DNA from: Akkermansia muciniphila
Lineage (GTDB): Bacteria; Verrucomicrobiota; Verrucomicrobiia; Verrucomicrobiales; V1-33
NCBI GenBank assembly: GCA_943333275.1
Contig: CALQSQ010000007.1
Span: 1 to 64,000 of the forward strand
Direction: 5' to 3'
Length of the DNA: 64,000 nt
The stretch's first letter is position 1; the number at the start of each line of letters is the position of its first letter. Below the pieces are notes generated by a model. It was not told the origin of the DNA. It saw nothing but the letters and a program-made list of their open reading frames with translations, and searched no databases. Of the stretch, positions 18,426-51,063 are shown in pieces. A program made the translations under genes and the position numbers.

Positions 18426-18875
18426 TCATGACTTCGCTTTCGAAGTGAACAATTTAGCAGTCGCCAATGTTGCCAAAGGACCGCTGACAAGGTCCCGAAG
18501 GGTGTGGCGGTCCAGACTGGCATAGAAGGCGCTCATCGCCTCCGAAAGAAACCCTTTGAGGGAACAACAACGGATGAGGGGGCAGGTATTGGTGGCGGGA
18601 TCGAAGCATTCCAGGAGAACGGACCGGGATTCCGTCTGACGAACGAGTTTGCCAATTTGAATTTGATCGGGAGAAATTGCCAGCTGAATGCCGCCGCCGC
18701 GGCCTCGTTGGGTATCGAGGTACCCGAGCTTGCCAAGATTATGGACCACCTTGGCGAGGTGGTTGCGGGAGATACCGTAGGCCGCAGTGACCTCATCCAG
18801 AACAAAAGCTTCCCCTTTAAGAGCGGCAAACATGAGCACACGAAGCGAGTAATCACTGAAGAGGCTGAGGTTCAT
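18426..18875 (-). CDS. Rrf2-family regulator, NsrR-type (putative Fe-S nitric oxide sensor)
   Basis: 'MNLSLFSDYSLRVLMFAAL', wHTH 'TAAYGISRNHLAKVVHNLGKLGYLDTQRGRGGGIQLA', cysteines 'ECFDPATNTCPLIRCCSLKGFLSEAMSAFYASLDRHTLRDLV'. Confidence 0.88.
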   Translation of the reverse strand: MNLSLFSDYSLRVLMFAALKGEAFVLDEVTAAYGISRNHLAKVVHNLGKLGYLDTQRGRGGGIQLAISPDQIQIGKLVRQTESRSVLLECFDPATNTCPLIRCCSLKGFLSEAMSAFYASLDRHTLRDLVSGPLATLATAKLFTSKAKS

Positions 18876-18971
18876 GTTTGGGTCACGGAGTTGGTTTGCG
18901 AGAATGGCTGGCTGGGCAACCTAGCTCAGGGAACCGCAGTTGTGTATGCAGAATAAATTTCCACTCCGATA

Positions 18972-18994
18972 AAGATGCATTCATAATGCATCTT
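18972..18994. promoter_or_regulatory. Putative NsrR operator
   Basis: Perfect 10-3-10 inverted repeat AAGATGCATT-CAT-AATGCATCTT between the divergent regulator (start 18875) and haemoglobin gene (start 19065). Confidence 0.85.
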
Positions 18995-19002
18995 ATAACT
19001 TT

Positions 19003-19026
19003 CGGACGGAAGCACCTTTCCGTCCG
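19003..19026 (+). promoter_or_regulatory. 5'-leader hairpin upstream of the haemoglobin gene
   Basis: Perfect 9-bp stem cggacggaa-gcacct-ttccgtccg between operator and ATG. Confidence 0.5.
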
Positions 19027-19064: not shown

Positions 19065-19664
19065 ATGAGAACCCTGCTACCCTTGGTCGCCACGATTGGC
19101 CTTGCTCTTTTCCAATTTTCAAATTCGAGGCTGGCAGCCGAACCGGCACCTGCCGCCGTGAACGGAGAAATTAACAAAATCTGTCCCATCAGCGGAAAAC
19201 CTGTCGATCCGAAGATCACGGTTGTTTATGAGGAAAAGACCTATGCTTTCGCCTCCGATGAGTGCCGCAAAAAATTCAACGAAGCCCGAGAAAAGAGTCT
19301 CTACAGCCAATTGGGGGGCAAGGCAGCGATCGATGCCGCGGTGGAGTTATTTTATAAAAAGGTGCTGGCCGATGATCGGATCAAGCATTTCTTCGATGAC
19401 ATCAACATGGACAAGCAGCGCCGAAAGCAAAAAGCCTTTCTCTCCGCAGCTTTTGGCGGTCCTGTTCCCTGGACGGGAAAAAACATGCGTGAGGCCCACG
19501 AGGGACTTCCCAACCTGAATGAAACCCATTTTAATGCTGTTGCGGAGAATCTTCAAAAGACCCTTGAGGAGCTGAAAATCAAAAAGGAGTTGATCGATCA
19601 GGTCATGGCGATAGCGGCGAGCACCAAGGATGACGTTCTGAATCGCAAGCCTGCCGCGAAGTAA
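19065..19664 (+). CDS. Exported YHS-domain / group 1 truncated haemoglobin fusion
   Basis: Signal-like MRTLLPLVATIGLALFQFSNSRLAAEP; YHS-like 'CPISGKPVDPKITVVYEEKTYAFASDECRKKFNEA'; trHb 'SLYSQLGGKAAIDAAVELFYKKVLADDRIKHFFDDINMDKQRRKQKAFLSAAFGGP...MREAHEGL'. Confidence 0.87.
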   Translation: MRTLLPLVATIGLALFQFSNSRLAAEPAPAAVNGEINKICPISGKPVDPKITVVYEEKTYAFASDECRKKFNEAREKSLYSQLGGKAAIDAAVELFYKKVLADDRIKHFFDDINMDKQRRKQKAFLSAAFGGPVPWTGKNMREAHEGLPNLNETHFNAVAENLQKTLEELKIKKELIDQVMAIAASTKDDVLNRKPAAK

Positions 19665-19825: not shown

Positions 19826-19902
19826 GGAGCGGTAGCTCAGTTGGTTAGAGCGCAGCCCTGTCACGGCTGAGGTCGCGGGTTCGAGCCCCGTCCGCTCCGC
19901 CA
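19826..19902 (+). tRNA. tRNA-Asp (anticodon GTC)
   Basis: Acceptor GGAGCGG/CCGCTCC, D-arm agctcagttggttagagc, anticodon loop CTGTCAC, T-arm GCGGGTTCGAGCCCCGT, encoded CCA. Confidence 0.95.
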
Positions 19903-47680: not shown

Positions 47681-48322
47681 TTAAGCCCGTCCCGTCAGGA
47701 CATCCAGCACGAGGATGGTGGCAGCATGTCGGCTGTCGATCCCTAGCTTATCAAAGATGTTCGATAGGTGGCGCTTTATGGTTCCTTCGGCAGCTCCGAG
47801 AATTGCGCTGATTTCACCGTTGCCTTTTCCCTGGGCCACCCAAAGCAGCACCTCCGCCTCTCGTGGGGAGACGCCAAGGGCCTTTTCTATGGGAACCGGG
47901 GATGTGAAGTCAGGTGGCACCGCCGTTGCATGGCGCAGGGCGTGCTGGTGGGCGGCATGGCGGGCGAGGCGGGTTTCGATGGCGGCGAGAAGATCCTCGG
48001 ATTCGACGGGTTTGGAAAGATAATCATCGGCCCCGAGATTCATGCCGGTCCGGACATCCGGCTTTTCTCCCTTGGCGGTTAGGAAGATGAAAGGAATCAT
48101 TCGCGTGGCCTGAGCGGACCTCAGGTTGCGCAGGACTTCATAGCCATCGGCCTCGGGCATCATGATATCACACAGAATCAGATCGGGGAGTTCCAGGGTG
48201 GCGGCAGCAATTCCTTCCCGCCCATTACAGGCGGTGGTGAGCCGATAGCCCTCCAATTCAAGCATAAGCGCAAGGTTTTTGCGCATCACAGGCTGGTCTT
48301 CAATAATGAGGATGTGGGTCAT
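47681..48322 (-). CDS. NarL/LuxR-type response regulator
   Basis: Receiver 'ILIIEDQPVMRKNLALML', 'LILCDIMMPEADGYEVLRNL', 'FLTAKGEKPDV', 'LSKPVE'; LuxR HTH 'LGVSPREAEVLLWVAQGKGNGEISAILGAAEGTIKRHLSNIFDKLGIDSRHAATI'. Confidence 0.92.
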   Translation of the reverse strand: MTHILIIEDQPVMRKNLALMLELEGYRLTTACNGREGIAAATLELPDLILCDIMMPEADGYEVLRNLRSAQATRMIPFIFLTAKGEKPDVRTGMNLGADDYLSKPVESEDLLAAIETRLARHAAHQHALRHATAVPPDFTSPVPIEKALGVSPREAEVLLWVAQGKGNGEISAILGAAEGTIKRHLSNIFDKLGIDSRHAATILVLDVLTGRA

Positions 48323-48342
48323 GGTGGTGGGTTGGGTAGAAG

Positions 48343-48786
48343 TCAGAATTCGGAGCGGGCGGGAATTTGCATTGCTTTCCAATGAGCAGCCCCCTCCTGC
48401 ATGATCCCGGTGATCCAGGCATAGGCCTCCGACCAGGCGTCCCGGGCACCGACCGTGAAATCTTTTCCAAGGACATCAGCGAAGGCCTCCAGTAAAGCGG
48501 TTCCCACGATACCGTAATGCTCGTCCACCACGCCATAGGTTGCGTGGCGCTGACCCATTTCAGCAAGCATGGGGGCAACAGATTCAGGGGCGTCCAGGCT
48601 GGTCGTGACGGTGCGCAGCATCTGCATCAACTTGACGCCCTGGGCCTCGATGTCATTGCTGAACATAGGGCGCGTTGCAGGGGCAATCTGGAAAAGGCGC
48701 TGATAAAATAGCAAAGCGACGATTCCAGCGCGGCCTTCCAGGAGGCTGAACGTATGACGGATAAGTTGAATGGCGGGGGGGCTCAT
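48343..48786 (-). CDS. Single-domain globin (flavohaemoglobin/VHb class)
   Basis: 'LLFYQRLFQIAPATRPMFSNDIEAQGVKLMQMLRTVTTSLD', 'MLAEMGQRHATYGVVDEHYGIVGTALLEAFADVLG'; B10 Tyr, E7 Gln, F8 His by eye; no reductase domain. Confidence 0.9.
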   Translation of the reverse strand: MSPPAIQLIRHTFSLLEGRAGIVALLFYQRLFQIAPATRPMFSNDIEAQGVKLMQMLRTVTTSLDAPESVAPMLAEMGQRHATYGVVDEHYGIVGTALLEAFADVLGKDFTVGARDAWSEAYAWITGIMQEGAAHWKAMQIPARSEF

Positions 48787-48798
48787 GATGGCAGGAAT

Positions 48799-51063
48799 TC
48801 AATTCCAGACTGGCAGGGTGATGGTAAAAGTGGTGCCTTTTCCAGGCTGGCTGGTGAATGACACATCGCCTCCGTGAAGTTCCGCGCAGCGCTTCACAAC
48901 GACAAGACCAAGGCCGGTTCCGGGGAGGTGGCCGACGTTGTCAGCCCTGGCGAAGGGTTCAAAGAGCTTGGGCTGGTCTTCCAAGGGAATGCCGATGCCG
49001 TGGTCGGTGATGGTTATGATGGCCTTGGAGCCTTCTGCACGGAGATGAACGTGCACCGCTGCTTCCTCGGGGGAATATTTGATGGCGTTGTGCAGGAGGT
49101 TGTTAAAGATGTGGCGGAACAGCATCTCATCGATTTGAGCCGGACCGGGAAGCGGGTCCGAAGTGATGACGGTATGACCAGTTTGGGCTGCGGCAGACCG
49201 TGTCTCGTCGGCCAGGCGATGGCAAAATTCATTTAAATTGACCGGCTGTGGTTTGATATCAACACGTCCGGCCTCCGCACGCCCCAGTAAGAGGATGTCC
49301 TCCATCATGCTGGACATTTGGCGGGTGGCATGGCGGATTTCCTGGAGGTGTTCGCCGATGCGTTCGGCAGGGAGTCGGTCACGATACCGGGTCAGGATGT
49401 CGGTGGCGGACATAATGACGCCCAGCGGGGTGCGAAACTCATGTGAGACGGAACTTACGAAACGACTCTTCAGTTCCCCCACTTCACGTTCCTCTTTGAG
49501 TGAGGCATGTAAGTCTGCGCGGGCCTGCTCCAGTTCCATCGTGCGCTCTTTTACACGATTTTCAAGTGAGGCATTGAGCACCCTGATTTCATGTGAGAGG
49601 AAGCGTTCCCTGCGAAGCCTGCGACGCATGATCAGAATGCCTCCCAGGGCAAGCAGGCCGCCGCCACCGGCGATGATGAGGTTTCTTATTTGCACCGCCC
49701 GGATCACTTCCGGCGCGGTTCCTAGACTGCGAATGTCTGAGGCGCTTCGTAGCATCAAGCGCCCCTTGGCACCACCGCCGTCAGCTGACACCATTCCCGT
49801 CACTTCAATCAGGTCGTCCGTGGAATATTTCACCAAATGTTCACCGTCGGGGGATTCCAAATAGGCCTCGACCTCGGTTTCTCCGCAGCGCAGCCGAACC
49901 GCTTCCACCATCCGCGCGGCCTGCAAGGTGGCGCTGGTTTGCGAAGCTGCTCTTCCTTTGAAAGTGACCAGATTGTGCCGATGTGAACCATTCGCGATGC
50001 TGGCACCGTCGATGGGAAGTGGATCGAAATTTCCTCCGCTGCGCAAAACTCTGGCCTCACAATAACGCAACCACAATCCGAGACCAGCAGGGTCGGTAAA
50101 TGGAGAGCCAACAATTTCAATGATGTCACCTGAGCGCAGCACGGGATTCGGGACCGTGGGTGAAGTGAGTTTTGGAGCCAGGGGGTCTGGCTTCCAAGGA
50201 ATGATGAAATTTGCCAGAAAGGGAGTTCCGCCTTCATCCCGCAACCAGATCCAAGCTTCTGGAGGTGTTTGCGCGGTGTGCAAGACCGTGGCGGTGAAGC
50301 GCACGCGATTTCCGTTCCGCGCAGTGGATTTAAGCAGTTCAATCGCATTCCCAGCCGGGGCCTGGAAGCAATCCTCAGATCCCGGTATAACGACAGTTAC
50401 ATTCATGAGATCGTAGGTGGCCAGCGTCATACCCATTGCATCCGGTTTGTCGAGATTCATGCCCCGAACTCTCAGTCTGGCATTCACCCATTGCAGTGGA
50501 ATCTCTCCTTGGGGCACACCGCGAACATAAAAAATCATCCATCCCAGGTCTCCGGCCAGGATCACTTGCAAATCGCTGCCCACGCGCCGCACCTGTAGCA
50601 CGGTTCCCTCGACTTCCACCCAGCGGCGTGCATATTGACAGCGCACCACTTCCTCCAGCTTGGCGATGATGGGCGGCGGAGTCACGTTTTCATTCAGCAC
50701 GCGCATTGAGGTGATTTCGATCCGAGGTTCATCCGGCTGCTGGTTTGGTATGGCCCCGCGCGTTATGCCTGTCATCTCAACTTCGGTATTGGGCAGAGGG
50801 AGAATGCCAGTCGCCTTGTAATCTGCCAGAATGGATTCGCCGTCCTGCTGCAGATAGGCATTCGGTCCGGAGCGGCTTGTGCCGATGATAAAGGCTTTCA
50901 CAAGCACCGGCCGGCGCTCCCGCTCCGCTTCCGTAGATCCCAATGTCTTGATTTCCGCCAGGGAAGTCAAGGGTTGGGTGTCTGCCCATGCCAGGCCATG
51001 CAACCACAGCAGGATGGCTGCAGCACGCAAGATGGTTAGGAGTGATGGGAGGAGGTGGTTCAA
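48799..51063 (-). CDS. Membrane sensor histidine kinase with extracytoplasmic OB-fold-like repeats
   Basis: Signal/TM N-terminus, second TM 'NLIIAGGGGLLALGGILIMRRRL', H-box 'SSVSHEFRTPLGVIMSATDIL', N-box 'FNNLLHNAIKYSPEEAAV', 'DHGIGIPLED', 'GTGLGLVVVKRCAELHGGDV'. Confidence 0.9.
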   Translation of the reverse strand: MNHLLPSLLTILRAAAILLWLHGLAWADTQPLTSLAEIKTLGSTEAERERRPVLVKAFIIGTSRSGPNAYLQQDGESILADYKATGILPLPNTEVEMTGITRGAIPNQQPDEPRIEITSMRVLNENVTPPPIIAKLEEVVRCQYARRWVEVEGTVLQVRRVGSDLQVILAGDLGWMIFYVRGVPQGEIPLQWVNARLRVRGMNLDKPDAMGMTLATYDLMNVTVVIPGSEDCFQAPAGNAIELLKSTARNGNRVRFTATVLHTAQTPPEAWIWLRDEGGTPFLANFIIPWKPDPLAPKLTSPTVPNPVLRSGDIIEIVGSPFTDPAGLGLWLRYCEARVLRSGGNFDPLPIDGASIANGSHRHNLVTFKGRAASQTSATLQAARMVEAVRLRCGETEVEAYLESPDGEHLVKYSTDDLIEVTGMVSADGGGAKGRLMLRSASDIRSLGTAPEVIRAVQIRNLIIAGGGGLLALGGILIMRRRLRRERFLSHEIRVLNASLENRVKERTMELEQARADLHASLKEEREVGELKSRFVSSVSHEFRTPLGVIMSATDILTRYRDRLPAERIGEHLQEIRHATRQMSSMMEDILLLGRAEAGRVDIKPQPVNLNEFCHRLADETRSAAAQTGHTVITSDPLPGPAQIDEMLFRHIFNNLLHNAIKYSPEEAAVHVHLRAEGSKAIITITDHGIGIPLEDQPKLFEPFARADNVGHLPGTGLGLVVVKRCAELHGGDVSFTSQPGKGTTFTITLPVWN

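Follow-up and report, generated by a model that had tools for sequence, protein, structure and literature searches.

A predicted exported group 1 truncated haemoglobin (trHb) with an N-terminal YHS domain is encoded in the window, i.e., the whole 64,000-nucleotide stretch of DNA analysed here, and it is probably induced by NO and acts on NO in the periplasm of a bacterium that reduces nitrite. The combination of an export signal and the switch site of an NO sensor is what suggests an NO trap or detoxifier outside the cytoplasm. The known NO dioxygenases of bacteria and truncated globins of the single-domain type are generally regarded as cytoplasmic, and in denitrifiers NO is formed outside the inner membrane. 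A YHS domain joined to a globin was not described in the literature searched, and compared with known NsrR-controlled group 1 trHbs, we regard the compartment and the architecture as the new elements.

The gene is a single open reading frame (ORF) at exactly positions 19065-19664 on the forward strand and encodes 199 amino acids, as supported by profile matches and family conservation. It starts with a signal-like N-terminus (residues 1-25), followed by a short linker, a YHS/TRASH-like domain (residues 38-77) and a group 1 trHb (residues 78-194), confirming the composition proposed in the sequence-only reading, in which the string quoted as YHS-like corresponds to residues 40-71. Chance can be excluded as the origin of this ORF, as the trHb part shares up to 88% identity with relatives and the frame is intact across dozens of genomes. 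An AlphaFold model of the protein reaches block-mean pLDDT values near or above 90 for approximately residues 41-190, and here the YHS helix at residues 65-77 continues straight into the globin. Directly 3' of the globin gene lies a tRNA-Asp (GTC) at positions 19826-19902.

The globin domain (19296-19646, forward strand) matches the Pfam Bac_globin profile (PF01152) over residues 78-192 with 65.6 bits against a cut-off of 21, thus covering the whole 2-on-2 globin domain. The solved chains nearest to it all belong to group 1 and include cyanoglobins (E 5e-32) as well as the group 1 trHbs of Tetrahymena and Chlamydomonas, with E-values of about 1e-32 to 1e-29 for these chains as a whole, while the top Foldseek matches are Chlamydomonas eugametos haemoglobin (1dly) and Mycobacterium tuberculosis (Mtb) trHbN, with Chlamydomonas THB1 in sixth place. 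Alignment to Synechocystis GlbN assigned the haem pocket residues as Tyr97 (B10), Gln118 (E7), Lys121 (E10), Gln122 (E11) and His145 (F8). Tyr97, Gln118, Gln122 and His145 are invariant in all 55 exported trHb proteins aligned, and Lys121 is found in 52 of them. The protein thus shares the fold, the proximal His, Tyr B10 and Gln E7/E11 with GlbN, THB1 and Mtb trHbN, and Lys E10 with THB1, but those globins are single-domain proteins without a YHS domain, whereas the window protein carries both a signal-like N-terminus and a YHS domain. In GlbN, a C-terminal His is the site of a covalent haem link. A similar link was considered for the window protein and rejected, since this His is not conserved at the aligned position.

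Export is suggested by the first 25 residues (19065-19139, forward strand), which display Lys/Arg at positions 2-8, a hydrophobic 10-mer with a mean hydrophobicity of 2.54, and the motif LAA before Glu26, after which cleavage may occur. In shuffles of this one sequence, 20 of 1000 were as hydrophobic as the actual N-terminus. By the same hydrophobicity heuristic, all 56 distinct exported family members have an N-terminus of similar type, with Lys/Arg preceding the hydrophobic core in every protein except that of locus L090, while the N-terminal hydrophobicity of nine cytosolic trHbs falls below that of the exported proteins. The extracytoplasmic location proposed from the sequence alone is thus supported, and the globin is likely exported as far as a hydrophobicity heuristic can tell. 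Export of a trHb as such has a precedent, as the lPHCtX cytochrome-trHb fusions of cable bacteria also place a trHb domain in the periplasm by means of a fusion protein; yet their partner is a multihaem cytochrome, their proposed role is that of an oxidase, and they have neither a YHS domain nor a link to NsrR (PMC11976967).

The YHS-trHb fusion is not restricted to the source genome. A search of 387 genomes of a single order, apparently Verrucomicrobiales, was positive for this architecture in approximately 56 of them (hand count), and the resulting family of exported trHbs has at least 56 distinct members, whose haem pocket is fully conserved. A scan of genome contigs, which reached close relatives only, returned three loci. 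Maximum-likelihood analysis places the exported proteins on one branch, separate from the cytosolic group 1 trHbs (99/98 support), and six proteins consisting of a signal peptide and a globin without YHS nest inside this branch; the best reading of this nesting is that the YHS domain was gained once and lost at least twice. Some genomes encode two or more exported YHS-trHb copies (L087/L110, L070/L089 and L069/L044; genomes G416, G442, G456 and G458). Genes from two loci labelled Akkermansia muciniphila (L005 and L006) cluster with genes from other Verrucomicrobiales genomes, making these species names look doubtful. Outside the phylum, the best plasmid match, from Methylocystis rosea (79% coverage), was rejected as a YHS-trHb and is a cytosolic trHb: the annotated coding sequence begins at the trHb, translation of the preceding DNA yields no YHS, and a gene for a 2Fe-2S protein follows.

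The strongest indication of a function related to NO comes from the upstream region. Divergent from the globin gene, positions 18426-18875 on the reverse strand encode a regulator of 149 amino acids with an Rrf2 fold (94.6 bits) and the three-Cys cluster motif C-x7-C-x5-C. Of all NCBIfam models, NsrR matches it best with 104 bits, under the equivalog cut-off of 182, and RirA is a close second with 100.5 bits, likewise below its equivalog cut-off; the regulator is therefore termed NsrR-like. NsrR was also the top NCBIfam model for nine of the ten regulators of relatives that were scanned. Between the divergent genes, a perfect 10-3-10 palindrome, AAGATGCATTCATAATGCATCTT, constitutes a predicted NsrR-type operator at positions 18972-18994. 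It displays the 11-1-11 inverted repeat of NsrR sites, is identical at 21 of 23 positions to the NsrR operator of Escherichia coli ytfE (PMC5320621), and proved unique in the 5.8 Mb source genome in pattern searches allowing up to three mismatches. A promoter-like TTTCCA-18-CATAAT on the forward strand (18958-18987) places its -10 element inside the operator, yet it is a weak consensus match, with two such matches found where 0.9 were expected by chance. Just past the operator, the globin leader contains a perfect 9-bp inverted repeat, CGGACGGAA/TTCCGTCCG, with a 6-nt loop (19003-19026). Control of a group 1 trHb by NsrR is known from Legionella, where NsrR controls the cyanoglobin GlbN together with a ferredoxin reductase; the Legionella operon differs in including the reductase gene, which is lacking here, and in that the window globin is predicted to be exported (PMC3820574).

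The proximity of the RirA score could also mean that the regulator senses Fe-S or redox stress in a RirA- or IscR-like manner instead of NO specifically, with the globin carrying O2 in the periplasm or acting as a peroxidase there. Upstream lie sufT and lipA, both Fe-S related, which would suit such a role. The operator, however, is of the NsrR 11-1-11 type, and in relatives it is NO and nitrite genes that adjoin the globin, making this explanation very improbable.

NsrR-type boxes recur in front of the exported trHb genes. At a threshold of at least 16 of 22 matching positions, they were found in 25 of 56 exported-trHb promoters compared with 2 of 252 control genes; the corresponding counts were 30 versus 8 at a threshold of 15 and 16 versus 0 at 17. 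G6 and T16 are conserved in all 30 NsrR-type sites. As the threshold was picked after the first sites had been seen, the genes are related, and the controls were other genes of the same loci called as simple ORFs, this contrast, though strong, should not be read as a clean probability. Around 20 of the 56 relatives lack both a clear operator and a linked regulator. Most of the six exported trHbs without YHS have the same kind of regulator or operator.

The gene neighbourhoods point in the same direction. Within 5 kb of the 54 exported-trHb loci, an NsrR-like gene was present in 27, a group 3 trHb in 13, a Tll0287-like gene in 9, HPP in 8, nnrS in 7, and nirK in 3, and 38 of the 54 loci had at least one of these genes or a norB-like gene. 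Group III trHb and nnrS are members of denitrification regulons elsewhere (PMC6710368). In six loci (L042, L054, L067, L068, L069 and L112), the globin gene is divergent from clusters containing trHb3, nirK/sco1 or nnrS, mostly across a region with two boxes. Clusters of the type trHb3-nirK-sco1-nnrS or trHb3-nnrS-radical-SAM occur in several relatives, and most of these are separated from the globin by one or two NsrR-type boxes. The divergent partner is trHb3-nirK in L042, L054, L069 and L112, with sco1-nnrS in addition in the latter two, and NsrR-type boxes lie in the shared intergenic region. Across genomes, exported trHbs were counted by hand in 19 of 40 genomes with nirK compared with 45 of 347 others (p 1e-6). 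Many carriers of an exported trHb have no nirK, so NO would have to come from another source in these bacteria.

The source organism is itself probably denitrifying. Its genome has one cluster encoding a NirK-cytochrome c fusion (351 bits), a group 3 trHb and a SCO1 domain, and further encodes NnrS and a NorC/NorB/NorQ-like set, in which NorB was called from a COX1 match together with a NorQ-type partner and not by a NorB-specific model. The cytochrome c domain is C-terminal in this NirK (L114:5053-6666, reverse strand), and its gene adjoins one for an FGE-sulfatase-SCO1 fusion protein. No NsrR box of at least 17/22 was found before nirK, norC or nnrS of the source genome, and the best box near these denitrification genes (16/22) is located several kb away from nirK on the contig that carries it. 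The operator of the globin is thus the only clear one in the source genome. In the window, a single-domain globin (48343-48786; PF00042, 60 bits) is flanked by a sensor histidine kinase on one side and a LuxR/NarL-type response regulator on the other within an apparent operon (47681-51063, reverse strand), a possible gas-sensing system. At another locus (L115:2967-5378, reverse strand), a group 1 trHb domain is found N-terminal on a PAS-MCP chemoreceptor, where a truncated globin is an apparent taxis sensor.

The YHS/TRASH-like domain (19176-19295, forward strand) scores 21 bits against PF04945 (E 3e-4), below the Pfam cut-off of 30.3. Despite this, its identity is backed by relatives, 26 of 55 of which match PF04945 (best E 8.9e-8), by small secreted YHS proteins from this order, which matched at 99% probability in a profile-profile comparison, and by fold comparison, in which Foldseek placed the TRASH domain of eL24/RLP24 and the YHS domain of phenol/toluene hydroxylase first, with weak E-values of 0.08 and up. 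The metal ligands of YHS/TRASH domains are Asp or Cys followed by three Cys (PMC4626032). In the window protein, alignment gives Cys, Ser, Ala and Cys, i.e., only positions 1 and 4 are occupied, by Cys40 (19182-19184) and Cys67 (19263-19265), while positions 2 and 3 are Ser43 and Ala63. It shares the same small fold, as judged by profile and model, with the YHS/TRASH domains of Mycobacterium phlei adenylyl cyclase, Cu-ATPases, phenol hydroxylase and eL24, but differs from them in its two non-Cys ligand positions and in that the domain is absent from some of its relatives.

The sequence-only reading had connected this domain to metal-coupled chemistry, and it could be speculated that YHS, by binding Cu (or Zn/Fe), either controls the globin or supplies NirK with the copper that this enzyme requires in the same compartment. 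In favour of this, a Cu response is known for the YHS domain of the M. phlei adenylyl cyclase (PMC4626032), some relatives have nirK and a SCO1-type copper chaperone domain next to the gene, and 48 of the 49 members with a YHS domain carry Cys40, with three or four ligand Cys in seven. Yet, besides the two missing ligands in the window protein, the second Cys has been lost repeatedly across relatives. The ligand patterns in 55 proteins were C..C in 25, C... in 9, C.C. in 7, C.CC in 6, CCCC in 1, and none in 7, i.e., nine relatives retain Cys40 alone, one YHS-bearing relative has no ligand Cys, and six exported trHbs of the same clade have no YHS at all; a canonical four-ligand YHS is encoded elsewhere in the source genome (L116). 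This makes metal coupling improbable and weakens, at the level of sequence, the case for a metal role: clearly, selection maintains the haem pocket but not the metal site, so metal binding by the window protein is unlikely to be essential. The domain is best explained instead as an eroding, dispensable cap with a structural or docking role, or as a relic, rather than as an essential metal site. A disulfide between Cys40 and Cys67 is possible.

Taken together, the NsrR-like regulator, the operator, the boxes in relatives, the neighbourhoods and the NirK and NOR-like set of the source genome argue for a periplasmic globin induced by NO. The NO part of the chemistry proposed in the earlier reading thereby gains support from evidence which that reading lacked, namely the divergent regulator, its operator and the nirK, trHb3, NnrS and HPP neighbourhoods. 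In the proposed mechanism, NirK would form NO outside the cytoplasmic membrane, and the divergently encoded NsrR-like repressor would lose its Fe-S cluster to NO and then leave the operator over the globin promoter, allowing the globin to be made and exported. The globin would bind haem via His145, with Tyr B10, Gln E7 and Gln E11 on the distal side, and Lys E10 may serve as the sixth ligand at rest, as proposed for Chlamydomonas trHbs such as THB1 (PMC4439042). It may capture NO; at low oxygen, a dioxygenase reaction (Fe(II)-O2 + NO -> nitrate) is the favoured route, and capture near the source could protect respiratory enzymes. Dioxygenation is the most likely chemistry because the pocket resembles those of trHbN and the cyanoglobins. 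A point against it is that dioxygenation requires O2, whereas NirK operates mainly at low O2.

The source of electrons for such a reaction is less apparent, as the window contains no gene for an electron donor near the globin, and no periplasmic candidate is obvious. NO buffering and nitrite or NO reduction are therefore alternatives, and the globin might be an NO buffer, an NO reductase-like enzyme, a nitrite reductase or a reporter of NO signals. Such roles are possible if unlikely: a periplasmic reductase is not linked to the gene, and Tll0287-like sensor-type genes adjoin it, as do those for HPP proteins, whose cyanobacterial counterparts transport nitrite according to work cited in PMC7438415, but the Tyr B10/Gln E7/Gln E11 pocket resembles that of the O2-binding trHbN and cyanoglobins. 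In a rather unlikely elaboration of the favoured reading, the protein might be a periplasmic enzyme dedicated to NO dioxygenation, so that a bacterium that makes NO outside its membrane would also destroy it there; an electron carrier of the same compartment would reduce the globin, and this carrier or NirK would dock at the YHS domain.

A family of exported globins under an NO-sensing repressor would open two questions to direct test, namely whether detoxification takes place at the site of NO formation and which donor reduces a globin in that compartment, and it could bear on the amounts of NO and N2O released by these environmental bacteria.
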